A model generated the notes under the pieces. That model was not told the origin of the DNA. It worked only from the letters and a program-made list of their open reading frames with translations, and made no database searches. Below, piece after piece: positions 20,491 through 36,649 of a stretch of 41,129 bases of DNA (position 1 is its first letter; each line of letters begins with the position of its first letter). The DNA is from Vulcanimicrobiota bacterium. GTDB lineage: Bacteria; Pseudomonadota; Gammaproteobacteria; Xanthomonadales; Rhodanobacteraceae. The stretch covers positions 1-41,129 of the forward strand of contig CAJCJD010000176.1 in the NCBI GenBank assembly GCA_903970555.1, read 5' to 3'. The position numbers and the translations under genes are program-made.

Positions 20491-23400
20491 TTAGCGTCTG
20501 ACGTAAGTGATGTCGCTGGTGCCATCGGGTTCCGGTCTACGCAGGAGGGCGTTGTACCAGCGGCGTTGTTGAGCGAGGTCGCTTTCGATTAGCCATTGCG
20601 GTTTGTTGGCGACGAGTGCGGCTACGGGAACGCCGTCTTCGTACAGCACGCGGGTGCCGGCGAGGGCGGGTAGGCGATCACCGGCGAGTACGGTGCCGAC
20701 GAGGTTCAAGGGGTCGCTGCCGCTCAGGCAGATGCGTTGTTGTTCCGGTGCGCGTTGCCGCACGCTGCGTAGTTGGCCGATGGCTTCGGGTAGTGCGAAC
20801 TGCTCGCCGACGATGCCTTCTACGAAGCGGCCGCCGCGTATTTCACCGCGTGCTTCCAGTCGATGATAGACGCGCAGCAGTTCGCGCCAGGAAGGGAGCC
20901 ATGGTGCTTCGCGTTCTAGCAGTTTCCAGAAGACGACGCCGTAGCGGCGCAGCAGCGTGCGGGCGATGTGCTCGATGGTTTCGGCCTGCCCTTCATTCGC
21001 GCTCTGCGTTGAAGATGATGATGTGCGCACAAGTGACCATCGTCCTGCGTCTTCGATCTCACTCAACGTATGACGGCGTACGCGACGATGCTTGGATGAC
21101 TCCCGCTTGGCGGCGGGTGTGAGCAGCGCGCGCAGACCGGCGAAGCTGTCGGCGGTGACGCGCCCGGCGGAGACGAGTTCGCCGAGGGCATCTTCGAGTT
21201 CAGTGCGTAGCAATCGCGTGGTGTCGATGAGTTCGTCGAAGAACAAGGCGCCCTGTGCGGTGAGTGCATCGACCACGGCTTGTGCGCGTGATGACAGCAG
21301 CGGCTGCTGGTCCTGGTTGCGGTCGGCAATGGATGTCCAGAGATTCAGTTGGCGTCGTGGTAGCAGCACGATCGGCGTGGCGCGCACGGGGCCGCTGCTG
21401 CCACCACCGCTGCGCAGGCGATTCCAGCCAATGCGGCCGGCGCGGCACAGTTCGTCGAGCCAGCGGCTGGAGTAATCATCGATACGTGCGGCGAGTAGTT
21501 CGGCTTCCCAGGCGCCTGCTGCGGCTTCAAAACCTTCTAGCTGATTGAGTACGGCGCCGAGTGCATCCGGGCCGCTGAGTCGCGTGCCTGGGGTGACGTG
21601 CTGCCAGTCGAGCAAGAAGCGCATCAGGTCGCGTCGGCTGACAGGTTCGATTTCGCGGCGCAGGCGACCAATGGTGTAGCGATGGATGCGTGCCAGCAGA
21701 TGACGTTCGCACCATTCGGTCTCCACGGCGTCGGGGGTGAAGCGGCCTTGCATCACGTAGCCTTCCGACTGCAGGCGTATGAGTGCGAGTTCGATGTCGG
21801 TGGTTTCCACGCTCAATGATGCGGCTAACGCGTTGATGGTGATCGGGCCGAGGCCGGTTAGTCGTCCGCGGACCAATTCGAGTAACGCGTCTTCGCGTGT
21901 CCAGGTTTGCGCAGCGAATTCGGCCGGTGCGCTGATGGGTGGCTGCATCGATGCGCTGTCATGCACCGCTTGCCACAGAGGTAGCTTCTCAGCGCAAATC
22001 CACACACCGCACGATATTTGCTCCTCCCCCTGTTGACAGGAGGAGATTGGGAGGGGGTTATTTGAGCTTGGCGCTGTGGTGGGGGCTTCACCCTTCCCCA
22101 ACCCTTCCCTGCTGCGCGCAGGGGAGGGAGTAAAGCGGGTGGCGCGGTGCGAGGTTGCAAGTTTGCGTAACCAATCGAGCCAGCCGGCGTTGGTATTGGC
22201 CTCGTCGGTGGTGACGAAGCCGAGTACGTTAAGCGCCTCGTGCATCTCGTCCGCACTGCGCACATCGGGCCATGCTTCGGCACGCACGGCGGCGATTGCT
22301 TCGGGGTCGAGTTTGGCCAGATCGTCGGTGTCTTCGATGCCGTTCCAGTGGCGCGTCTGCACCGCGCGGGTGCGACGTTCCTCCAGCGGCGCGTCGTCCA
22401 GAAAGGCATACGGTGCGGCGTTGAGTATTTCGCTGGCTAGCGGACTGGGTGCGGTGAGATCGCGCGCGACCACGGTGATGGCGCCGGATTCCAGTCCCTT
22501 CAGAATGTCCAACAAACCATCCACGTCCATCGCTTCACGCAGACAGTCGTGCATGGTCTGGTTGACTAGCGGGTGATCGGGAATCTGTCGTTCACCGGCG
22601 ATGTTTTCCAGGCATGCGACCTGGTCGGGAAACACGGTGGCGAGTAGATCTTCGCTCTTCATGCGCTGCAGTTGCGCCGGCACTTTCTTGCCGCCGGCGT
22701 AGCGCGGCAACGCGAGTGCGGTCACCGCATTCCAGCGCCAGCGCACGGGAAACAAAGGTGCATCGAGCAATGCCTGCACCAATACGTGTTCGGCACTACT
22801 GCTGTGCAGGTAACGCGACACTTCCTCCAGCGGAAAACTGTGGCTGGTGGACAGCGACAGCACGATGGCGTTTTCGGTCGCCGCTGCCTGCAGCTCGAAG
22901 TTGAACTGTCGGCAGAAGCGCTTGCGCAGTGCCAAGCCCCAGGCGCGGTTGATGCGGCTTCCCCACGGTGTGTGGATCACCAATTGCGTGCCGCCGGATT
23001 CGTCGAAGAAACGCTCGAAAACGAGCGTGGATTGCGTGGGCATCACGCCGAGTGCGGCCTTGGCTCTGGCAAGGTATTCCACGACTTGCTGCGCGGCGGA
23101 TTCGCTCAAGTTCAAGCTATCGTGCAGCCAGTCAAAGGCGCCCTGTACGCCGTCAGCATCGATGAGCGTGGCGATTTCCTCGCGCAAACGCGAAACGCCC
23201 AGTGACAATTCGTTGCTGCGTCCCGGCGCTTCCCCAAGCCAAAACGGAATGCTGGGTGGTGCCCCGTGTGCGTCTTCGACACGTAGGCGATCGCGTTCTA
23301 CACGCTGGATGCGATAGCTGGTGTTGCCAAGCTGGAAGATATCGCCGGCGAGGCTTTCGACCGCGAAGTCTTCGTTCACCGTGCCGACGATGGTGGCTTG

Positions 23401-25095
23401 CGGTTCCAGCACCACCAGGTAGTCGGCGGTGTCGGGAATGGTGCCGCCTGAGGTGACGGCGGTGAGCCGCGCGCCGCGACGTGCGCGCAGCTCGTGGTGC
23501 ACGGCATCGCGATGCACGTAGGCAGCGCGTGCGCCACGACGGGTGGTGAAGCCGTCGGCCAGCATGCGCAGGATGGCATCGAATTGTTCGCGCGGCAGCG
23601 TACGGTATGGATATGCGCGGCGGATCAGCGCGAATAACGTATCTTCGTCCCATTCAGCGCACGCGACTTCGGCCACGATTTGCTGAGCCAGAACATCGAG
23701 CGGTTGCGGTGGTTGCACCAAGGTGTCGAGTTCGCCGCGGCGTACGCAATCGAGCAGTGCGGCGCATTCGATCAGATCGTCGCGGCTGGTTGGAAACAGT
23801 CGCGCTTTGGGTGTGCCGCTTACCGCGTGACCGGAGCGTCCGGCACGTTGCAGAAATGCAGCAATGGAACGCGGCGATGCAAGCTGGCAGACCAGATCCA
23901 CATCGCCGATGTCGATGCCCAGCTCCAACGAAGCCGTGGCGATCAGTACTTTCAGATCACCGCGTTTCAGACGTTGTTCGGCATCCAATCGTTGTTCTTT
24001 CGCCAGGCTGCCGTGATGCGCGGCGACGGCTTCATGGCTGAGTCGTTCGGACATATGTCGCGCCACGCGTTCGGCCATGCGTCGCGTGTTGACGAACACC
24101 AGCGTGGTGCGATGCTCCTCCACCAGTTGCGCGAGCCGGTTGTAGACCAGCTCCCAGGTGTCGTTGGACATCACCGCTTCCAGCGGCACCGGCGGCACTT
24201 CGATGGCGAGATCGCGGTGGCGCGTGTGACCGACGTCGATGATGGTGCAACCTGCTCCGCGCTCGGGCTCGGGAAATTTCGGCAAGGGGCCGCTGCGCGC
24301 GAAGAGATCGCCGATGGCGTCGGTGCTATCGGTCGTGAGCGGTACGCTGGGTGTCGCGCGCGACGTCAGCGTCGCAAGTGCGGCATCTTCGCCCTGCCCT
24401 ACCAGGAATCGCGCGACATCTTCGATCGGCTTCTGCGTGGCCGACAGGCCAATGCGCAGCAACGGTCGCTGGCACAGCGCTTCCAGGCGTTCCAGTGTGA
24501 GCGACAGATGTGCGCCGCGCTTGCTGGCGGCGACGGCGTGGATTTCATCGACGATCACACTACGCACGCTCTTGAGCATCTCGCGTCCGGACAGCGAGCC
24601 CATCAGCACGTAAAGCGATTCGGGCGTGGTTACCAGAATGTGCGGGGGTGCTTTACGCATCAGGTTGCGTTCGGCTTGCGGGGTGTCGCCGGTGCGCACG
24701 GCGGTGCGGATCGGTGCGTCGGGCAGGCCGAGTTTTTGCAGTTCGGCGCGAATGCCTTCCAGTGGTGCTTCGAGATTGATGTGGATGTCGTTCGACAGCG
24801 CTTTGAGCGGCGAGACGTACACCACGCGTGTTTCGTCCGGCAGCGTGCCCCCGCGCGCCACGGCTTCTTGCACCAGCGCATCGATAGCGGCAAGAAATGC
24901 GGTAAGCGTTTTGCCCGAACCGGTAGGTGCGGCCACCAGCGTGTGTTGTCCGGCGCGGATCGCCGGCCACGCGGCGGACTGCGCGTCCGTGGGCGCAGGA
25001 AACGTGGCGTCGAACCACGCGGAGACAGCGGGATGGAAATCGTGCAGAGGCATGGTCGATGGCCCGCGTGGCTGCGGGAGCGGTTCGTCGATCAT
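20491..25095 (-). CDS. lhr: Lhr-type DEAD/DEAH-box ATP-dependent helicase, full length
   Basis: A very large superfamily 2 helicase of 1534 residues, matching the long-Lhr family of about 1500, thought to act in DNA repair as a 3'-5' single-strand DNA translocase. The N-terminal core has the Q-motif region, Walker [20 protein letters not shown] (near residue 55), DEIH at 183-186, the SAT motif [14 protein letters not shown], and motif [17 protein letters not shown] winged-helix and Lhr-core domain follow, then a C-terminal Lhr-CTD of about 600 residues. The ATG at 25095 was used; a second ATG at 25053 ([10 protein letters not shown]) is equally possible and neither has a clear ribosome-binding site. 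Residues of about 988-1025 are encoded by an in-frame copy of the intergenic repeat (22021-22131) between the core and the CTD. Confidence 0.95.
22021..22131 (+). repeat. 110-bp two-hairpin repeat, copy 2, in frame inside lhr
   Basis: CTCCTCCCCCTG-TTGA-CAGGAGGAG, then TTGGGAGGGGGTTA, a variable middle, TTCACCCTTCCCCAACCCTTCCCT and GCAGGGGAGGGAGT. It aligns with the reverse complement of 13370-13481 over its whole length, middle excepted. It keeps the lhr frame open (111 nt, 37 codons) and codes for a Ser/Pro/Gln-rich linker with no similarity to a helicase domain. Confidence 0.85.
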
Positions 25096-27832: not shown

Positions 27833-28960
27833 TCAGTGCCGTGGCGATCTGGTGAACAGGGTCCACCCCAGAAAGGCCATGCCGATGATGGCTAGGCATG
27901 CAGTAGGCGGCCACCACAGATAGAAAACGCGAAGCAAAACCACGCATAGCGCGAGCGCCACCACCACGGCGAGCAACAGCAGCTGCCAATTGCGTCGTAG
28001 CCCAGGCAGGCCGTACAGCAACAGCGGCACCAGCAATACGCCGCTCGCAACGACTCCCTGCGCCAGAAAGTTGAGCGGGGTGACCAAAAGGCCGCGATGC
28101 AGCGACTCCAGCACGTTGGCTTGGTATTCTACGCCAGGCATCGGCGAGTCGGGTGTTTGCAAAATATCGCCCAAGCCTTCCGCCGTGGCGCCAATCAACA
28201 CCCAGCGTCCTTTGAGCAACGAAGCAGGAACGCTGCCGTCGAGAACGTCGGTGAAGGATAGACTTCCAAACGTACCGACCGGTCCCGCGTAGCGCAGCAG
28301 CACGTAGTCATTGCGCATCCAAAGATACGGGGATGCATCGTTGCTCAAAGGATCGCGCAAGCCGGGCAGGTTGGTCGGTGCGGTGTGATCGAGTTGCTGC
28401 AACGCCAGTGCCAGCGAAGGCCAATAAGCGCTGCCTAGGCCGGCCTTTAGATAAGCGCCGCGCACTATCTCGTCCGAATCCTTGGCGACATCGACCTGAC
28501 CGAGCGCGGCGACGTTTTGCGCAATCGGTGGCACCGGTAGTGCTTCCTGCAGTGCGCCGCCCAGCGTGACCGCTTCGGCGAACACCGGCATCACCACCTT
28601 GCCGTTGCGATGCATGGCATCGGCCAAAAGCTGATCGTTGTGCGGGTTGTCCGATTCGGGCGTGGACATGGTCACGTCCATGCCGATACCGCGCACGCCA
28701 TCGGCGGTGAGGCGGTCGATCACTTGCGCATAGACCGAGCGCGGCCACGGAAAACGACCGACGGTATCGAGGCTTTTGGGATCGATCGCAATGATGATCA
28801 CGTCGTTGTCCGGCGTGTAGTGCCAGACGCGTGCGTGCAGATCGTAGATCGCGTTGTCGGCAGGTGTGGTGATGCCGCTGACCAACAGCAGCACCAGCAC
28901 GCCGAGACTGGCTATCCACATCATGCCGCGCACCAGCCAGGCGAAGGCGCTGTTGGGCAT
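27833..28960 (-). CDS. CHASE2 domain protein without output domain
   Basis: A 375-residue membrane protein: an N-terminal span (about 8-30), a large extracytoplasmic CHASE2 sensor (about 33-290) with DNDVIIIAIDPKSLDTVGRFPWPR, VRGIGMDVTM and GRWVLIGATAEGLGDILQTP, and then three C-terminal spans (about 300-370). In most CHASE2 proteins a cytoplasmic kinase, cyclase or GGDEF/EAL domain follows the three spans. Here the chain ends 6 residues after the last one, at RSPRH, and no remnant lies downstream. It follows the LysM-FecR gene by 66 bp on the same strand and is probably co-expressed with it. The partner enzyme may be a separate protein. Confidence 0.93.
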   Translation of the reverse strand: MPNSAFAWLVRGMMWIASLGVLVLLLVSGITTPADNAIYDLHARVWHYTPDNDVIIIAIDPKSLDTVGRFPWPRSVYAQVIDRLTADGVRGIGMDVTMSTPESDNPHNDQLLADAMHRNGKVVMPVFAEAVTLGGALQEALPVPPIAQNVAALGQVDVAKDSDEIVRGAYLKAGLGSAYWPSLALALQQLDHTAPTNLPGLRDPLSNDASPYLWMRNDYVLLRYAGPVGTFGSLSFTDVLDGSVPASLLKGRWVLIGATAEGLGDILQTPDSPMPGVEYQANVLESLHRGLLVTPLNFLAQGVVASGVLLVPLLLYGLPGLRRNWQLLLLAVVVALALCVVLLRVFYLWWPPTACLAIIGMAFLGWTLFTRSPRH

Positions 28961-29026
28961 CAGCGCCTCGCGATCCGCGATGGATGACGGCAGTAAGGAT
29001 GGCTGTCGGTAACCCTCATGCCATCC

Positions 29027-30676
29027 TTATAGCAAGATCCACAACACCACGGCGCCACCGCCCGCGATGGCGGCAATGCGGCAGGACACGCAGGCGATAT
29101 GGATCTTCTGCACTTCGCCCCATGGGCCTGCATAGCCGTCCGTATCGATGGTCTGCACGCGCACATACCAGGCGCCGGCACCGGGCTTTTGGATCTGCAG
29201 CACGGGCTGGTCCAGCGTCTGATCCACCTGTGGATGCGTGAAGTTGGGGTCGCGATCCAGTTGGATGTGATAGCGCTGGCCAGGCGTACCCGTCTGCCAA
29301 CCGAGGCTCACCTGATGATGCGATGACTTCGGTTTCCCAACCTCCGGCGCAGGTGGTTGCGGCACCAGGTCGAAGGGCATGGGGTCGCTGAAAGGCCCTT
29401 GTTTTCCGCTGCTATCGCGACTGGCAATGCGCCAGTAGTAGCGCCCGTACGGCAATGCCTGCGGTGCGCGCACGTCGTCGCCGGTGAGTTTTGTTTCCGA
29501 AGCCAGCAACTGGGTGAATTGTGCATCGCTGGCAAGCTGCCATACGTACGAGACCGCTTGAAGGTTTTCGGTCCAGCGAAAACGCGGACGCGTATCGCGC
29601 ACCTTGCTGGCGGGCAATGGTTCCATCACCAGCGGCGGCTGCGGATGGCCGCTGATGTGCAACGTGCAGATGCTGTCTTCGCCTTCGAGTTTGTTGGCGT
29701 CGATGCCATGCACACGCACGGCGTAGTCGCCATCGGGCACATCGGGCAACGCGGATTGCGGCGAGCTGGTAACGCGATCGAGCAACAACGCTTCGAAGCG
29801 ATCGTTGGCAGCCATCTGCACACGGTAGCTTGTCGCGCCAGCGACGGGTGACCATGCGAAAGAGTAGGGCAGTTGGTTGATCGGCTGCGTGGGGCAGTGC
29901 AGATCGGGCGCGATCAGCAGCGGTTGCGCCTGTGTCGGGCGGGAGCCGTTGGCGACGGCAACGCCGAGTCCTTTGTGCACCAGCACGCCAGCGTGATCGC
30001 CTGCGACTTCGACGCGCCCGGTGAGCACTTCGGTTTGCGAGCTACCGGTATCCGCGGCAACACGGAAATGCGTGCCGCGCACGCTGGAAACCGTGCCGGG
30101 TGTTTCCACGCTGAAATGCGCGGCGACGCCGGTCATCGGCGTTACGGCGCTGGAAACGCGGCCGTGCTGCAGGCGCAATCGCGTATCGACCATGCCGGTG
30201 CGACCGTAGGCGCTCATCTGATCGAGATCGAGTTCGCTGTTGTCCTGCATCAGCACGCGCGAGCCATCGGCGAATTGCAGAGAGAGGCTAGCGTTGGCGT
30301 CGGTGCTTAAGTGCGTGCCATAGCCCAGCGTCATGCCAGTCGTGACGGGCACGGCTTGGGCCTGGCCGGGCAGTTGTACGTGCGCGCTGCCGATCACCGC
30401 AATCACTTGCGCGTCGGCCGGTTGTACGCGAAGCCATGCGATCGGCACATGCAGTGTCATGCCGGGTGGCAGGTGATACGGATCGGTGACCTTGTTGTAG
30501 TCCTGCAACTTCTGCCACGGCACGTCGGGCTTCAGGTAGCGGCTGGACAGATCCCAGATGTTGTCGTGCAGGCGGACACGGTAAGTCCAGTCGGTGGCCG
30601 AAACGAGCGGCACGATCGACAAAGTGAGAAGCGTAAGCGCAAGCCGCAGTAGCAGCTTGGTCCGGGCGGGATGCAT
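29027..30676 (-). CDS. LysM and FecR domain envelope protein
   Basis: A 549-residue exported protein. A signal-like N terminus (LLLRLALTLLTLSIVPLVSA) is followed by a LysM-like module (about 32-75: RLHDNIWDLSSRYLKP, YHLPPGMTLHVP), which would bind peptidoglycan. A FecR domain follows (about 85-215: TGMTLGYGTHLSTDANASLSLQFADGSRVLM, SSVRGTHFRV), then repeated beta-sandwich/Fn3-like segments. The last 20 residues are hydrophobic (IAAIAGGGAVVLWILL), a C-terminal membrane anchor. The start has GGGGGA 8 nt upstream. It probably works with the CHASE2 protein encoded 66 bp downstream; a shared sensing role is inference. Confidence 0.93.
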   Translation of the reverse strand: MHPARTKLLLRLALTLLTLSIVPLVSATDWTYRVRLHDNIWDLSSRYLKPDVPWQKLQDYNKVTDPYHLPPGMTLHVPIAWLRVQPADAQVIAVIGSAHVQLPGQAQAVPVTTGMTLGYGTHLSTDANASLSLQFADGSRVLMQDNSELDLDQMSAYGRTGMVDTRLRLQHGRVSSAVTPMTGVAAHFSVETPGTVSSVRGTHFRVAADTGSSQTEVLTGRVEVAGDHAGVLVHKGLGVAVANGSRPTQAQPLLIAPDLHCPTQPINQLPYSFAWSPVAGATSYRVQMAANDRFEALLLDRVTSSPQSALPDVPDGDYAVRVHGIDANKLEGEDSICTLHISGHPQPPLVMEPLPASKVRDTRPRFRWTENLQAVSYVWQLASDAQFTQLLASETKLTGDDVRAPQALPYGRYYWRIASRDSSGKQGPFSDPMPFDLVPQPPAPEVGKPKSSHHQVSLGWQTGTPGQRYHIQLDRDPNFTHPQVDQTLDQPVLQIQKPGAGAWYVRVQTIDTDGYAGPWGEVQKIHIACVSCRIAAIAGGGAVVLWILL

Positions 30677-30697
30677 GGTGTTTCCCCCTGAAATCCC

Positions 30698-30717
30698 GTG
30701 CGGTACGGAAACCGCAC
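30698..30717. promoter_or_regulatory. Hairpin in the leader of the LysM-FecR gene
   Basis: GTGCGGT, a 6-nt loop, ACCGCAC (7-bp perfect stem) 22 bp upstream of the ATG at 30676 (minus), immediately before the ribosome-binding site GGGGGA. It could mask or expose the site. Confidence 0.5.
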
Positions 30718-30866
30718 TAGCGAGACGCCCCCTACGTCACGGATCGGCCGTGGGCAGATGACCTTAGTCCGGGGGTCAGCAAACCTGGGTCGAGTGGATC
30801 GGGGCTAATTTTGAGGCAGAAACGAAACAAATACCAATGCGGATGAAAGAAAGCGAACGCATTGAT

Positions 30867-33740
30867 TCATGATTCGGTGGTTTCTTGCGCCAGCCTGACT
30901 AACACGTCCCGTAGGTTCTTGAGATAGACGGGCATCTCGCGCAAGGTCTTGCCATCGTCGTCGTTGCCCAGTCGCTCCAGCCACGCGCGTCCCTCGGGGA
31001 TCACGCGATCGGCGGTGAACAATTGCAGCGCGCCCAGCAGGCGATGCAGCGTCTGCATGGCTTGACGGCTATCGCCATCGGCCACGGCCTGCTCAAGTTT
31101 GCGCAGATCCGCATCGCCGGTCTGGACCAGCATGCGCAACATCTCGGCACGCATTGCCTGCATGCCGGGTTCGGCGAAGACATCGTCGTGCATCGGCACG
31201 GTTGCCGGGTCTGCCGTAACAGCGTGGGGTATCCACGACAGGATCTTTTCCTCGAGCTGGCGCAGTTGCACGGGCTTGCTGAGGTGGTCGTCCATGCCGG
31301 CATCGCGGCAGCGCTCGATCTCGCCGTCGAGGGCGTTCGCGGTCATTGCAATGATGGGCAGGCGCGTGCGCGAGTGGGTTTCGGATTCGCGTTGGCGCCA
31401 CGCTTTGGCCAATTCGTAGCCGTTCATCAGCGGCATATGGCAATCGGTCATGAGCATTGCGTAGTCGCCAGCGCGCAGGGCGTCGTACGCAGCGCGGCCG
31501 TCGGCGACCACGTCGCAGGACCATCCCAGCAGATCCAGTTGACGCCGTATCAGCGACTGGCTGATCGGATGGTCTTCCGCGACCAAAATGCGCCCGGTTT
31601 TACGTGTGGGACTGGCGATGTTCGCAAGAGGCTCGGCCGGGGGGGCAGGTGGCCTATCGTGTGCCGTCGCATTGAGCGGCTTGAGGCCTTGTAAACAAAC
31701 CCGTACGACGGTTTGCCACTTCAGCGGATTGGCGTTGAGCCAGATGCGCTCGTCGTCGAGCTGGCCGCTTGGGCTTGCGGCGCGCGTGTCGACCAGGATC
31801 GCTTGCGCGGCGACAAGTCCGGCGCTTTGCGAATCATCGGGGTCGATGAACAGCAGATTGGCGGCGATGCCGCGGCGCATGGGTTGTTCGGGTGGGATCT
31901 GTTCGACCGTAAACCCCAGTGCGGTCAAATGCGCGGCGAGTGCGTTGGCGGTGCCGATCGCGTTCAACCGCACGATCGCGTGCCGACCGGCGAATTCGCT
32001 GGCGTGTTCGATATCGCGCTGGGCCACCGGCAGGCGCAATTCGACCACTACCTTGGTGCCTTCGCCCAGGCGACTGCTCAGTTCGATACTGCCATCCATC
32101 AGCTGCACCAGGTGACGGCAGATCGCCAGGCCGAGGCCGGTGCCGCCATAGCGGCGCGTGGTCCATGACTCGGCTTGCGAGAACGGCGTGAAGAGATTGG
32201 CTTGCTTGTCGGCAGCGATGCCGATGCCGGTGTCGGTGATGCTAAGGCGCAAGCGCTGGAAATGACCGTCGTCGCCGAGCACGCGCAAACCGACCGCCAC
32301 GCTGCCGTGCTCGGTGAACTTGCCGGCGTTGTTCAGCAGGTTGAGCAGAATCTGGCGTATGCGCACGCTGTCGCCCAGCAGCTTTCCGGCGAGCGTTGCA
32401 TCCGCGCCAACCTCGATCTGCAGCCCCTTCTTGTGCATCGAGCCGGTCATCATGCCGACAACGTTGTCGATCAGCGTGCGCAGATCGAACGGTGCATCGT
32501 CCAGGCGGAGATTGCCGGCTTCGAGCTTGGAGAAATCCAAGACGTCGTTCAGCACCTGCATCAGAACGCCAGCCGAATCTTCTACAGCGTGCACCAGTTC
32601 GTGCTGTTCGGAGTCGAGCGATGTGCGGCCGAGCAATTCGAGCATGCCGATCACGCCATTCATCGGCGTGCGGATCTCGTGGCTCATCGTCGCAAGAAAA
32701 TCCGCCTTGGCTTTGGAGGCGCGTTCGGCTGCATCGCGCGCGGCACGCAGGGCTTCGTTGTGCGCGTTGATGCTGGTGGTGTCGATGAAATAGCCGATCC
32801 ACTCCACACCGCGGTCGGGCAGCCGGCGCGCGCCCATCACGAGATGGATCCAGCGCAAACCTTCCGCCCCATAAGCGCGAAAATCGAGTGTTGAGGTGCG
32901 CATATGCCGCCGGGCGCGCTGCAGCTGACGGCGCAGCGCTGGGGCATCTTCGGCATGGACGCGATCGTGGAAGGGCCAGTCGCGCAACACGTCGCCTGTT
33001 TCGAGCAGGTCCGACGGTTCCAGGCCGAACAGCGCGTGCAGGTTGCCGGCAATGAAAGCCAGTCGTTGCAAGCGATCGTTGCCGCGACGTACCGCAAAAA
33101 CCACGACGGGAATGCGTCGGGTGATGTCGCGCAAACTTTGCTCGGTGGCGCGAGCGCTGAGTTCGATCTGGCGATACTCGGTGATATCGAGCAGCAAGCC
33201 AGCCGTGCCGGTGATGACTCCGTCCGGCGCATGCATCGGCGATTCGAGGAACAGCCCCGTACGCTGCTGGCCATCGGCGCTGAGGTAATCGAGCTCGCAG
33301 CGCTGCACTTTGTCCTCGCGCAGCGCATCCACGCCGAGCTGGTGCAGGCGCTGCATCACCGGTGTGCCATCGGCCAGTGGAACCCAGCGATGCGTGTCCA
33401 GCACCAGGCTGGTTTTCCCGACCGCCTGCGCCGGATCGATACCTAGCCTGCGATCGCAGGCCGTGTTGAGCATGCGATACGTGGCCGTGGTGTCCTTGAG
33501 CAGGATGGGAAACGGAATCGCATCAAGCATGGCTTGCGTGGCCGCGGTTTGGTGCTGCAAGGCTTGATCGGCCAGGGTCAGTTTCTGCCGTTGCACGAAA
33601 ACCATGCGAAGAATCAGCAATGCGAGCAGCGCCGTCAGACTCAGCAAAGCGGCAAGCGCCGTCACTGTGACGGAAACCGAAAGCGGGCCAGCGTCGAACC
33701 AGCCAGATCCCACGGTACTGATGAAGGTTGCTAGGCGCAC
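30867..33740 (-). CDS. Hybrid histidine kinase with fused receiver and Hpt (RcsC/RcsD/BvgS-like)
   Basis: A 957-residue membrane sensor kinase. It starts with GTG at 33740 and has one membrane span (about 20-48) and no large periplasmic domain. Two PAS domains follow (about 65-190 and 210-330), then HisKA with the phosphorylated His354 in ATMSHEIRTPMNG, and the HATPase with GIGIAADKQANLFTPFSQ and YGGTGLGLAICRHLV. A weakly conserved region (about 600-700, LNAIGTANALAAHLTALGFTVEQI) recalls the RcsC ABL domain or a degenerate receiver. A true receiver has Asp766 in LMTDCHMPLMNGYEL, and a C-terminal Hpt has His899 in QTLHRLLGALQLF. So His, Asp and His phosphotransfer sites are in one chain. The divergent gene codes for the likely partner regulator. 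Confidence 0.93.
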   Translation of the reverse strand: MRLATFISTVGSGWFDAGPLSVSVTVTALAALLSLTALLALLILRMVFVQRQKLTLADQALQHQTAATQAMLDAIPFPILLKDTTATYRMLNTACDRRLGIDPAQAVGKTSLVLDTHRWVPLADGTPVMQRLHQLGVDALREDKVQRCELDYLSADGQQRTGLFLESPMHAPDGVITGTAGLLLDITEYRQIELSARATEQSLRDITRRIPVVVFAVRRGNDRLQRLAFIAGNLHALFGLEPSDLLETGDVLRDWPFHDRVHAEDAPALRRQLQRARRHMRTSTLDFRAYGAEGLRWIHLVMGARRLPDRGVEWIGYFIDTTSINAHNEALRAARDAAERASKAKADFLATMSHEIRTPMNGVIGMLELLGRTSLDSEQHELVHAVEDSAGVLMQVLNDVLDFSKLEAGNLRLDDAPFDLRTLIDNVVGMMTGSMHKKGLQIEVGADATLAGKLLGDSVRIRQILLNLLNNAGKFTEHGSVAVGLRVLGDDGHFQRLRLSITDTGIGIAADKQANLFTPFSQAESWTTRRYGGTGLGLAICRHLVQLMDGSIELSSRLGEGTKVVVELRLPVAQRDIEHASEFAGRHAIVRLNAIGTANALAAHLTALGFTVEQIPPEQPMRRGIAANLLFIDPDDSQSAGLVAAQAILVDTRAASPSGQLDDERIWLNANPLKWQTVVRVCLQGLKPLNATAHDRPPAPPAEPLANIASPTRKTGRILVAEDHPISQSLIRRQLDLLGWSCDVVADGRAAYDALRAGDYAMLMTDCHMPLMNGYELAKAWRQRESETHSRTRLPIIAMTANALDGEIERCRDAGMDDHLSKPVQLRQLEEKILSWIPHAVTADPATVPMHDDVFAEPGMQAMRAEMLRMLVQTGDADLRKLEQAVADGDSRQAMQTLHRLLGALQLFTADRVIPEGRAWLERLGNDDDGKTLREMPVYLKNLRDVLVRLAQETTES

Positions 33741-33941
33741 GACAAGGGTTCGATCAGTTCAGCCAGATCCGTGGATGAGCCGCCCTCGGCAATCGGGCGG
33801 CCCTGTCCTTCATCATGCCTGTTTGACGCGTAAGATCAATCGACGCGCGGCATCACAGGAGCCCGACGCGTTTGGGTAGACTCTCCTTACACGGGGTAAC
33901 GATCCGTGCCGATGGCTTTGGAGTCTTTAGCGACCTTGACT
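33741..33941. promoter_or_regulatory. Divergent regulatory region of kinase and response regulator
   Basis: About 200 bp between the kinase start (minus) and the regulator start (plus) must hold both promoters. A perfect 7-bp stem GCCGCCC-N9-GGGCGGC lies at 33779-33801. No confident -35/-10 pair was found. Confidence 0.5.
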
Positions 33942-34625
33942 ATGTCACACAGCGACCCGACCACCCGGATCGTCATCGCCGATGATCATCCCGTCGTGAT
34001 GCTCGGAATCCGGGCCCTGTTGAAGGATCGCGGCAACTTGCAGGTGGTCGGAGAGGCAAGCAGTGGTGCGGAGTTGCTGGCGCTGCTCGCTGCGCAGCCA
34101 TGCGATCTGCTGATCACCGATTTTTCGATGCCCTACGAAGACGATTCCGGCGATGGCTTGCTGCTGTTGCGCCGGCTGCGTCGCGATCACCCGACCTTGC
34201 CGATCATCGTGTTGACCATGGTGCATAACCCGGCGTTGATCCGCGGCATGCTGGCGGCGGGTGTCAACGGCATGGTCGGCAAGGTGGCGATGATGAAAGA
34301 GCTGCTGCTGGCGATCGGCGCGGTGATGAATGGGCGCATGTACATCTGCGAAAGCATGCGCGAGCACGTCAGCGACCGGACGACATCGCGCATGCAGGTC
34401 GACGTAGCGCAGACCGAGGCCGGCAACGATCCGGCGGTCCTGTCCCAGCGCGAGGCCGAGGTAGTGCGCCTATATGCGCAGGGCCTCACCGTCACGCAGA
34501 TCGCCGAACACGTTCACCGCAGCGTGAAGACGGTGAGTCAGCAGAAGAACGATGCGATGCGCAAGCTTGGCATCACTAGCAACACCCAGCTGTTTGAGTA
34601 CGCGCGGGCCTACGGATTGCTGTAG
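33942..34625 (+). CDS. RcsB-like LuxR-family response regulator
   Basis: A 227-residue response regulator: a receiver domain (IVIADDHPVVMLGIRALLKDR, phosphorylated Asp60 in LLITDFSMPYEDDSGDG) and a C-terminal LuxR-type helix-turn-helix (LSQREAEVVRLYAQGLTVTQIAEHVHRSVKTVSQQKNDAMRKLG). The DFSMP...GDG spacing, IIVLTMVHNPA and SVKTVSQQK match Enterobacterial RcsB closely from remembered sequences, including the unusual receiver insert. The start at 33942 (MSHSDPTTR) is preferred because it gives the usual short lead before the receiver. GTG 33906 and ATG 33912 are in-frame alternatives. It is divergent from the hybrid kinase and presumably takes phosphate from its Hpt domain. Confidence 0.93.
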   Translation: MSHSDPTTRIVIADDHPVVMLGIRALLKDRGNLQVVGEASSGAELLALLAAQPCDLLITDFSMPYEDDSGDGLLLLRRLRRDHPTLPIIVLTMVHNPALIRGMLAAGVNGMVGKVAMMKELLLAIGAVMNGRMYICESMREHVSDRTTSRMQVDVAQTEAGNDPAVLSQREAEVVRLYAQGLTVTQIAEHVHRSVKTVSQQKNDAMRKLGITSNTQLFEYARAYGLL

Positions 34626-35335
34626 CGATCGCGCGCGCTGCTCGCTTCATGGTGCATTGACCTCAAGAAACTTTATCGGGCAGGCGTGAGCCGCATGCCT
34701 GGATCTCGGTTGCCATCACCTGCGCGAAACAGCGCCGTCGAATTTTTAGGAATCGTCCGATACAGACACCCCCGCGCCGGGCCGCATCCTGCGACCCATC
34801 GAAGCGATGTTTATCGTCGGTGTTTCGGGCAACTCGTCCGCCGCCGCGCGATCTTCATCCGAGTCTTCCCGTACACCTAAGGAAGGGTGTGTGTCGACGA
34901 GGCTACGTCGGCAGCAGGCATGACAGACCCCCTGTGTGGCGTGCCTGTTGGGATTTAGATGGAAAAGGGAAGTGTGGGTGTGGGGTGTGAAGTGCCAGGA
35001 CGCGGCATGTCCGTGCACACGGATGTGATCAGGCGATGCATCGGCATCGTCTTGTGTGAGAAGCAAGGAAGACATGCCTGAGACCGCCCCGGCGCACAGC
35101 CCGGGCGGTCTTGGGCATGTCGCTCATCCGATGTGCCAGGGACTTAACTTCATGGCTGGATGGGAGAGTTCGCGGTGAATACAAGCGAATACAGGACGGA
35201 CAACGGATGGATCGGGCGGCAGCGGGGCAATTGAGTTTATGGCCAAGCTCATTGCACGCCGTGCGTGAGCGTGTTCCGTGCGAGCAAAAGCGCGGCGGCA
35301 GCGTAACGAAGTTATCGCACATCACGAGACGTCCG
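34626..35335. other. Long gene-poor leader between regulator and GGDEF gene
   Basis: About 700 bp with no convincing gene. A 109-codon minus-strand frame (34746-35075) has a protein-like acidic ending but no ribosome-binding site or recognised family. An imperfect 51-bp palindrome is at 35071-35121. The long leader may carry regulation of the diguanylate cyclase. Confidence 0.5.
35071..35121. promoter_or_regulatory. Large imperfect palindrome (51 bp) upstream of GGDEF gene
   Basis: GACATGCC, tg, AGACCGCCC, a 13-nt loop, GGGCGGTCT, tg, GGCATGTC: 17 of 19 arm positions pair. No T-run follows on either strand, so it is not a usual terminator. It overlaps the furthest-upstream possible start of the cyclase frame (35111), which argues for a later start there. 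It may be a protein-binding site or a stable RNA structure. Confidence 0.7.
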
Positions 35336-36649
35336 ATGTTTCCAGTACAGACCAAAGAGGCACTCGACCGTCTGCAGGAACTGATCCGGACGCATCCGGA
35401 ATGGCGCTGGCAGGTCGACAAAAACTATCGCTACACCGATCTGGCGCAGAGCCTGCTGTATTTGCTTGGGCGGCAACGCGATGACGTTCTAGGCAAGCAA
35501 GTCTTCCACTTCATGGCGCCGGAAGAAGCGGCGCGTGTATCTCGGCTGCTTCATGCCAAGTCAGGGTGGCCGTATTCCGGCGCGATCTCGCATCACCTGC
35601 GGCCGGATGGCACCACGGTTGCGGTCGAGTCGTGCGCCATGCCGATGCATGACGATAGCGGTCAGCTGCTCGGTTATTACGGCATCGCGCACGCGGTAGC
35701 CCATTTCGACCCGATGGAGAGCGAGAGCGTGTATCGGATGAAAGCCATCTATGACACCGCACCGGCCGCGCTGTGCCTGATCGGGCGCGATGGACGTTAT
35801 CTCGCCGCCAATGCGGCCTACGCATCGATCTACGGCCTTTCATCCGAAGCGCTGGTCGGGCGAAAAATGGAAGAACTGCAGCCAGGCGCGAGCGATTTCA
35901 TCCGCAAGGACCTGAAATGCCTGGATGCCGGCGTGGACGTGCCGGCGCATGAAATCGTCCATCACAGCAAGGTGTACCAAGTATCGGTGAAGCCGCTGCT
36001 CAACCTGATGGGGCAGGTGACCGGTATCACCACCGCCTTGATGGATATCACCGAACGCAAACGCGCGGAGCAGGAACTGGCCGAGACAAATCGGCGACTC
36101 GAGCATTACGCCATGCATGACTATTTGACTGGCTTGGCCAACCGCCGCCACGTCGACAATGTATTGGTCGAGGAAGTAGGGCGCGCTCTACGCGTTCGGC
36201 ATCCGCTATCGCTGTTGATGGTCGATGTGGACTTCTTCAAGCGCTACAACGATCGCTACGGCCACTTGCTCGGCGACGAGTGCCTGCGCACGGTGGCGGC
36301 GCAACTGAAGAGCGTGCTGCATCGACATGGCGATCTCGTGGGACGTTATGGTGGCGAGGAGTTTGTGGCGATTTTGCCCGGCACCGATGCAGTCGGTGCG
36401 CTGAAGATCGCCGAGTCGGTGCTCGCGGCAACCGCGGATTTGAATACGCCGCATGAGGAAAGCGAATACGGCCGGATCACGCTGAGCATCGGTGTCGCCA
36501 CGCTCGATCCGTTGTCGTCGTCGTGGCACATGCTCGCCAATGCCCGGGCGCTGCTGTACGTCGCAGACCAGGCGCTTTATGCCGCCAAGCTCGCCGGCCG
36601 CAACACCGTGTACAGCCATTCGTCGGAAGGGGAGCTATTCAATGCCTAG
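35336..36649 (+). CDS. PAS-PAS-GGDEF diguanylate cyclase
   Basis: Makes cyclic di-GMP from two GTP; predicted cytoplasmic, since no membrane span is seen. About 437 residues from ATG 35336: PAS1 (about 25-120, WRWQVDKNYRYTDLAQSLLYLLG), PAS2 (about 135-255, APAALCLIGRDGRYLAANAAYASIYGL) and a short coiled linker ERKRAEQELAETNRRLEHYAM leading to DYLTGLANRRHVDNVL. The active-site motif is GGEEF at 339-343. The feedback I-site is RHGD at 330-333, five residues before GGEEF, so product inhibition is likely. The start is uncertain: in-frame ATG 35207 and ATG 35111 exist upstream, but the longer leader is not conserved-looking. No phosphodiesterase domain is present. Confidence 0.92.
   Translation: MFPVQTKEALDRLQELIRTHPEWRWQVDKNYRYTDLAQSLLYLLGRQRDDVLGKQVFHFMAPEEAARVSRLLHAKSGWPYSGAISHHLRPDGTTVAVESCAMPMHDDSGQLLGYYGIAHAVAHFDPMESESVYRMKAIYDTAPAALCLIGRDGRYLAANAAYASIYGLSSEALVGRKMEELQPGASDFIRKDLKCLDAGVDVPAHEIVHHSKVYQVSVKPLLNLMGQVTGITTALMDITERKRAEQELAETNRRLEHYAMHDYLTGLANRRHVDNVLVEEVGRALRVRHPLSLLMVDVDFFKRYNDRYGHLLGDECLRTVAAQLKSVLHRHGDLVGRYGGEEFVAILPGTDAVGALKIAESVLAATADLNTPHEESEYGRITLSIGVATLDPLSSSWHMLANARALLYVADQALYAAKLAGRNTVYSHSSEGELFNA

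Follow-up and report, generated by a model that had tools for sequence, protein, structure and literature searches.

An output-less CHASE2 protein beside a LysM-FecR protein, an unorthodox kinase and an RcsB-like regulator in Rhodanobacteraceae: a conserved split variant of a known sensor system

What does a CHASE2 sensory protein do when it has no output domain? The question is raised by a locus in a 41,129-nucleotide stretch of Rhodanobacteraceae DNA (contig CAJCJD010000176.1 of assembly GCA_903970555.1; the whole stretch is hereafter called the window), where such a protein is encoded together with a LysM-FecR envelope protein, an unorthodox histidine kinase and a divergently transcribed response regulator. 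The initial annotation of this DNA had interpreted the four genes as a possible undescribed envelope-sensing phosphorelay with a fused RcsC/D-like kinase, an interpretation that our results support in part. The module proved to be real and conserved; rather than a new kind of system, it represents a split version of a known sensor system. We consider it probable that its four genes constitute one envelope-sensing phosphorelay with a split receptor, in which the CHASE2 protein would signal in trans to a sensor-less kinase.

The four genes and their co-occurrence in the family

The genes for the kinase, the LysM-FecR protein and the CHASE2 protein follow each other in this order on the minus strand, and the regulator gene is divergent on the plus strand. 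Pfam searches bore out the coordinates and domains initially assigned to all four. The CHASE2 gene (27833..28960, minus strand) encodes a 375-residue membrane protein whose sole Pfam family is CHASE2 (residues 21–299, E 1.6e-52), confirming that it has no output domain. Its layout is one transmembrane helix (TM1), the periplasmic CHASE2 domain and three further helices (TM2–TM4), with the stop a few residues past TM4. An AlphaFold2 model (mean pLDDT 87.5) has helices at residues 5–28, 298–315, 324–344 and 353–370; as confidently modelled, it is a complete, self-contained four-helix membrane protein, and a PDB search with the model gave no match at E 0.001, that is, no solved relative. The LysM-FecR gene (29027..30676, minus strand) encodes 549 residues with Pfam LysM (32–78) and FecR (123–223) domains and with Ig-like stretches that remain under the cut-off. 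Its N-terminus is signal-peptide-like, and its C-terminus features a CxxCR motif followed by a GG-rich hydrophobic tail ending in LLW-LL; C529, C532, R533, G540 and L545 are invariant among 21 aligned orthologues. The hydrophobic tail may anchor the protein in the inner membrane.

The kinase gene (30867..33740, minus strand; its GTG start is tentative) encodes 957 residues with PAS_4 (72–190), HisKA (344–409), HATPase (456–571), receiver (REC, 718–833) and histidine phosphotransfer (Hpt, 866–913) domains, the last scoring 25.9 bits against a Pfam cut-off of 24.6. A second, PAS-like domain accompanies the PAS domain, and hydropathy indicates one transmembrane region at about residues 26–44. The phosphorelay residues first proposed, His354, Asp766 and His899, were correct and are identical in 31 of 31 module kinases, that of the window included. 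The regulator (33906..34625, plus strand; the start may lie about 36 bp downstream) combines a receiver with a GerE domain (LuxR-type helix-turn-helix, HTH), and its Asp72 is identical in 30 of 30 regulators, again with the window included. The open reading frame (ORF) coordinates leave a 165-bp intergenic region between kinase and regulator (33741..33905), with low sequence conservation in the nine loci compared. The ratio of non-synonymous to synonymous substitutions (dN/dS) was 0.09–0.13 for all four genes in one pair, the window versus the locus of Dyella dinghuensis, each of them being under purifying selection.

Among 147 genomes surveyed from this family of soil bacteria, the same 31, the window's own included, had all of CHASE2, LysM-FecR and the close kinase, and none of the three (close CHASE2, LysM-FecR, module-type kinase) was found in the remaining 116 (Fisher p ~1.6e-32, relatedness ignored). 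For this survey, module-type kinases were called at E < 1e-210, and at most the best nine LysM-FecR and best five kinase first-look candidates per genome were scored. The earlier proposal that the sensor parts are separately encoded and go with the kinase is supported by this all-or-none distribution. A short module-type kinase without CHASE2 was not seen in these 147 genomes or in 200 genomes of the order, the best four or five candidates per genome being scored; the other kinase matches were open frames of 1253–1498 aa (E up to 1e-130 in the family and 1e-120 in the order). Two of the 116 module-less genomes have a weak fused CHASE2, with a kinase in L063 (G017:C1) and with HD_5 in L064 (G052:C2).

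Gene order was preserved as well. LysM-FecR adjoins CHASE2 in all 31 other module loci, and the kinase is next to the pair in 30 of them; the exception, L034, reaches a contig end, and the kinase and the regulator of that genome lie together where another contig begins. A regulator gene diverging from that of the kinase stands next to it in 29 of the 31 loci, the exceptions being L034 and L042; L042 has no regulator nearby, and the nearest further homologue of its genome is ~13 kb off. In copy 1 of genome G113, where no regulator adjoins and the nearest regulator homologue is ~13 kb off, the other three genes have kept together. A scan of named genomes, overlapping with the above set, gave 31 loci, of which 30 have a bare CHASE2 and one, L094 of Luteimonas endophytica, has CHASE2-GGDEF. 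All four genes occur in 29 of these 30, the remaining locus being at a contig end; they come from Dyella, Rhodanobacter, Frateuria, Fulvimonas, Luteibacter and two unclassified records, and the closest named relative is D. dinghuensis (Rhodanobacteraceae, Lysobacterales; 88% in CHASE2), which makes a Dyella or a close relative of that genus the probable source of the window. Thus, the neighbours stay together across relatives, as the initial annotation had asked to be tested. The other refuting outcome that it named, a consistent pairing of the CHASE2 protein with another kinase or cyclase elsewhere in the genome, was not seen, in that the window's genome (91.7% complete) gave one CHASE2 and no second.

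Evolutionary distances of the partners correlate (CHASE2-kinase 0.87, LysM-FecR-CHASE2 0.91, CHASE2-regulator 0.84), in part as a reflection of shared descent. Within each of four genera (g1, g11, g14 and g19), CHASE2 is present in some genomes and absent from others, so the module came or went several times. The extra copy of G113 and the copy of G040 group with the window's genus in the CHASE2 tree, the kinase tree and the LysM-FecR distances, which suggests that the module genes also move together. In addition to the module, genome G040 has a second CHASE2 system (L150, G040:C46), in which a receiver gene, one for a weak CHASE2 protein and a piece of a kinase follow one another. In L058 (G124), LysM-FecR matches fall in two overlapping frames, the module being otherwise complete.

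The LysM-FecR/CHASE2 pair outside the family

A LysM-FecR profile (A2) was used to find the pair in other bacteria. Apart from the window's own genome, 229 genomes of the class yielded 22 strong loci (E up to 1e-36), and 200 order genomes yielded 19 that lie outside the family (E up to 1e-20), with one locus common to both sets; weaker matches, many of them short LysM stretches, were dropped before counting. A CHASE2 protein adjoins LysM-FecR in all 40 different outside loci, and it has an output in every case: a kinase in 16, GGDEF in 17 and GGDEF-EAL in 7. These architecture counts come from hidden Markov model and phmmer searches, with Pfam run on seven of the 40 and on Luteimonas L094, which is outside the 40. 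As the output is fused in all 40 loci, the pair is a sensor there, and it represents a known sensing unit whose outputs change. L097 and L098 provide a fused counterpart of the module: the gene for a CHASE2-kinase-receiver hybrid adjoins that for LysM-FecR, and one or two receiver-like genes diverge from them.

Such a pair is also on record in the BiofilmReg operon of Burkholderia contaminans, which encodes a response regulator, a LysM-FecR protein, a CHASE2-PAS-histidine kinase and a DUF4136 protein, the LysM-FecR gene lying between those of the regulator and the kinase; an insertion in the regulator gene, predicted to silence the whole operon, abolished biofilm formation (PMC5192318). Our comparison was with the published description of this operon. 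Both systems have a LysM-FecR gene beside a CHASE2 protein, with a kinase and a response regulator (PMC5192318). In BiofilmReg, however, CHASE2 and the kinase are one chain, whereas the CHASE2 protein of the window is bare and the kinase is separate and unorthodox; the BiofilmReg kinase is described with neither REC nor Hpt, both of which the window kinase has; and the BiofilmReg regulator is a winged-HTH protein of the CreB kind (CreB/OmpR-type), unlike the divergent, RcsB-like receiver-GerE regulator of the window (PMC5192318). The term 'undescribed' consequently fails for the pair, published with CHASE2 and kinase fused (PMC5192318), and may stand for the split form, which was not found in a literature search that subscription journals mostly escaped. 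CHASE2 signalling is tied to a separate envelope protein in CHASE2 adenylate cyclases too: one in Campylobacterota clusters with a FecR-domain protein (PMC9239204), and CyaD1, CyaD2 and CyaK of S. meliloti are tied to the outer-membrane protein NsrA (PMC13001267). In these two cases, CHASE2 is, unlike in the module, fused to the cyclase, and the partners are others (PMC9239204, PMC13001267).

From which of these forms is the bare CHASE2 protein derived? A midpoint-rooted CHASE2 tree with 72 rows unites the bare proteins in a single clade (100/100), which is nested within CHASE2-GGDEF rows from the same order. The clade is sister to 16 such rows (97/88), with three further out (97/84) and one beyond (98/94), and the kinase and GGDEF-EAL rows lie outside the bare/GGDEF group. 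The tree omits pieces of less than 150 bits (L097, L098, L136, L150) and includes L134 and a second L119 copy without LysM-FecR. A quick LysM-FecR tree agrees, with the module partners in one clade (100) that groups with 17 GGDEF partners (96). The closest CHASE2 relatives, from other families of the order (Luteimonas L094; L096, L118–L131, L133, L135), resemble the module in standing with LysM-FecR, which ended in CxC/CxxC and a hydrophobic tail in the eight GGDEF-paired proteins inspected, and differ from it in having a diguanylate cyclase on CHASE2. The 14–21 kb fetched around CHASE2-GGDEF genes showed no kinase core.

The missing output could, in principle, be an assembly error, or the pair could be a relic that lost its output by decay and persists without function, since a GGDEF domain was indeed lost in this lineage. 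Both were rejected because the bare form is common to 32 of 32 loci, window included: in each, the CHASE2 protein (374–407 aa) ends after the last membrane helix. A functionless relic is extremely improbable also in view of the dN/dS of ~0.1 in the one pair measured and of a transmembrane bundle as conserved as in the fused forms. Mean identity in TM2–4 was 0.44 among bare CHASE2 proteins versus 0.38 among CHASE2-GGDEF proteins, the respective values for the CHASE2 domain being 0.63 and 0.57; TM2–4 of the bare protein are not relaxed, though nothing is attached for them to drive.

The nesting among CHASE2-GGDEF proteins is also what would be expected if the bare CHASE2 served a diguanylate cyclase in trans, with the kinase as a co-resident input or output. 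A candidate is the PAS-PAS-GGDEF protein (35111..36649, plus strand; Pfam; its TTG start is uncertain), whose gene follows that of the regulator in the window and adjoins the module at 11 of the 31 other loci, although another cyclase might be served. In another lineage (L156), the gene for a bare CHASE2 protein and that for a separate cyclase overlap, pointing to either service in trans or a broken fusion. Against these points, the PAS-GGDEF gene had no match at 20 of the 31 loci (one cut by a contig end), whereas the kinase is present in 30 of 31, and a close CHASE2 without the kinase was not found in the 147 family genomes. Service to a cyclase thus seems very unlikely to us, and the PAS-GGDEF protein is an accessory neighbour, no fixed part of the module. 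A link to cyclic di-GMP (c-di-GMP) through this neighbour, as first suggested, is retained for those 11 loci and echoed by the GGDEF domains of the closest CHASE2 relatives; it does not extend to the other loci.

The statement that bare CHASE2 proteins occur only in Rhodanobacteraceae was tried and found to be too strong. Four CHASE2 open frames of less than 500 aa were among the matches listed for the class. L157 (G259:C1, 9572–10948) encodes a CHASE2-only protein of 458 aa, with no Pfam output and no LysM-FecR or kinase match nearby. In L156 (G179:C11), an HD_5-GAF gene, the bare CHASE2 gene (350 aa) and a guanylate-cyclase-type gene overlap head to tail, making it either another split CHASE2 receptor or a frameshift-broken fusion. 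The frame of L158 runs into a partial cyclase, and that of L159 is cut by a contig end. Profile A2 gave no LysM-FecR match at L156–L158 and a weak one at L159. Because of L157 and L156, we limit the claim of bareness to LysM-FecR-paired loci.

The other neighbours in the window are TetR, two SDR, Lhr and AraC genes, for which the other module loci gave only one weak SDR match, in L032, when matches of >60 bits were counted. GC-rich, inverted-repeat-like sequence occupies LysM-FecR/CHASE2 gaps of 163–264 bp in L066, L070, L071 and L074, in L070 and L071 of the CCTCTCCCC...GGGGAGAGG kind; by eye, a similar-looking sequence seems present inside the Lhr-like ORF of the window (20491–25095).

Ancestry and input of the kinase

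The regulator was RcsB-like, as had been proposed. Its best NCBIfam model is RcsB (NF008098; 151.7 bits, under the equivalog cut-off of 235), and its best PDB match is RcsB, with 191 bits versus 87 for EvgA. The resemblance to enterobacterial Rcs consists of this sequence similarity and a His-Asp-His-Asp relay layout. Unlike Rcs, the module has one fused kinase where Rcs has RcsC plus RcsD, and a LysM-FecR/CHASE2 sensor. The kinase reached 321.6 of the 920 bits required by the RcsC model (NF008099) and scored higher with the BarA and TorS models, in both cases also far under the cut-off. The ABL domain of RcsC sits between HATPase and receiver, the same place as residues 576–715 of the kinase (window ~31596–32015), a conserved stretch of ~140 residues that had no Pfam match and no meaningful PDB match. 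No Pfam family for ABL was found in the kinase at E 0.1, and a profile of the inter-domain region (A7) found no RcsC chain in the PDB at E 1; a whole-kinase profile matched RcsC chain 2ayx over 648–824, mainly the receiver. IgaA (PF07095) gave no match at E 0.01 in the window's genome, with a positive E. coli control. The Hpt domain is fused to the kinase and is not a separate RcsD (no search for a separate RcsD elsewhere in the genome was made). With the RcsC score far short and ABL and IgaA not found, we rejected Rcs membership of the kinase; by sequence, the regulator alone is Rcs-like, the kinase not being shown to be of the Rcs family.

The designation as RcsC/D-like gave way to another affiliation, as the nearest kinase relatives that we found are BvgS/EvgS-like, with SBP_bac_3 (Venus-flytrap) sensors. 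Within the family, these relatives are open frames of 1229–1488 aa (12 compared), ~270–530 residues longer than the module kinase, and SBP_bac_3 sensors precede the same kinase core in all five scanned. BvgS/EvgS-like kinases (SBP_bac_3-HisKA-HATPase-REC, with PAS and Hpt in some) provide the nearest cores found in the family, and the part of the module kinase after PAS, HisKA-HATPase-REC-Hpt, matches this type; Bordetella BvgS and E. coli EvgS were compared only through the EvgS model and otherwise by type. Unlike them, the module kinase is shorter and had no flytrap in any of 22 scanned. A tree of kinase cores places all 31 module kinases in a single clade (100/100), which groups with the flytrap kinases (89/96). 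The inner branching order of the module and flytrap rows is unsettled in this tree, and we therefore infer, rather than read from it, that the kinase lost a flytrap head, as opposed to never having had one.

A single N-terminal hydrophobic region was seen in 31 of 31 module kinases, as two abutting windows in five and with a further weak stretch elsewhere in four, and Pfam scans of 22 kinases gave no sensor family besides PAS in any. These features bear on the explanation that the kinase and the regulator sense alone, through PAS or the membrane, and that LysM-FecR/CHASE2 is a regulator-controlled output, an adjoining regulon. Such an arrangement would account for the PAS and PAS-like domains of the kinase and for a promoter-like element of its own before LysM-FecR. 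It fits less well with the inconstancy of the first PAS (PAS_4 at E 0.001 in 10 of the 22 kinases), with the lack of any periplasmic sensor found in the kinase, unlike in the five relatives scanned, and with the fused signalling output of the pair in 40 of 40 outside loci, where it is hence a sensor. We regard this explanation as unlikely.

The promoter-like element, TTGGTA-N18-CAAAAT in the window (30808..30837, minus strand), belongs to a conserved leader element, TTGGCA-N17/18-[CG]A.AAT-like, upstream of LysM-FecR across 31 leaders. The pattern, which was composed after the leader alignment had been inspected, matched 19 of the 31, as compared with a mean of 0.18 and a maximum of 2 in single-base shuffles. 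Nearer the LysM-FecR start codon is a GGGGGCG-like stretch, present in 25 of 31 leaders by a loose pattern. Leader conservation in the window's genus had suggested a structured RNA. This was rejected: Rfam gave nothing at gathering score over 20000–41129, with one chance-level match in the leader (E 9), and four stretches folded no better than shuffles. Owing to these negative results, only the promoter-like element is reported for the leader.

A receptor possibly assembled from two proteins

Building on the observed domains, catalytic residues, gene order, co-occurrence and nesting of the bare CHASE2 among CHASE2-GGDEF proteins, we propose the following mechanism, in which trans signalling, signal identity, sign of control, phosphate route and target genes are deduced. 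LysM-FecR would reside in the periplasm, grip peptidoglycan through LysM, be tied to the inner membrane by its C-terminal tail and feed the partner's CHASE2 domain, presumably just as in loci with a fused output. The CHASE2 protein, keeping the sensing part only (one helix, the periplasmic domain and three helices), would pass the signal sideways in the membrane to the kinase with its one transmembrane region, and phosphate would then travel from His354 to Asp766, His899 and finally Asp72 of the RcsB-like regulator. That LysM-FecR stands next to a single-chain CHASE2-kinase at 16 of the 40 loci outside the family counts for signalling in trans, and these findings suggest that a one-piece receptor has been replaced by a receptor assembled from two proteins.

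The sign of control might be the opposite. IgaA restrains Rcs, and the pair might similarly restrain the kinase until envelope damage releases it, with CHASE2 serving perhaps as a mere anchor of LysM-FecR. Without a sensor, a kinase might be constitutively active and require restraining, and the co-occurrence of CHASE2, LysM-FecR and kinase applies equally to this sub-case of the split receptor; the findings favour neither sign, and IgaA itself was not found in the window's genome. We judge restraint to be somewhat unlikely.

Several points weigh against the split-receptor phosphorelay. The contact between CHASE2 and the kinase is one that we only infer, and the PAS domains of the kinase may sense in the cytoplasm and give it an input of its own. 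The Hpt is atypical (HRLLG), with just 2 of 22 kinases reaching E 0.001 in Pfam, although its His and Gly are invariant across all 31 kinases and the flytrap relatives show variation there too. The pair may have its own promoter and transcript, and it need not then share one operon with the kinase; the gap between LysM-FecR and CHASE2 also varies, from 13 to 264 bp in 17 loci. TM2–4 diverge faster than the CHASE2 domain (dN/dS 0.22 versus 0.06). Among fused forms, the closest relatives have GGDEF in place of a kinase, so that the ancestral output was c-di-GMP; a PAS-GGDEF gene is found beside the module in the window's genus, and bare or short CHASE2 occurs elsewhere without a module-type kinase (L157, L156). 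Finally, the co-occurrence statistics ignore relatedness, and shared descent contributes to the distance correlations.

As to the origin of the split receptor, the simplest account is that the common ancestor of the copies in the family had a CHASE2-GGDEF protein that shed its cyclase, a single loss, and that a BvgS/EvgS-like kinase lacking the Venus-flytrap head came to join it, together with its regulator. We see the chances as evenly balanced that the two, rebuilt in this way, now form one receptor through membrane helices alone.

How the signal of CHASE2 crosses the membrane is, to our knowledge, an open question, and in 2016 the signals recognised by CHASE2 were described as unknown (PMC5192318). 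The natural split form makes CHASE2 signalling testable, as sensor and kinase can be separately expressed, mutated and swapped, with four outputs of the LysM-FecR/CHASE2 pair open to comparison: bare plus kinase, fused kinase, GGDEF and GGDEF-EAL. The module would provide an example, with its position on a tree, of the conversion of a c-di-GMP receptor into a phosphorelay receptor. If the proposal is true, CHASE2 would be a transferable transmembrane sensor that acts on a kinase without covalent linkage.

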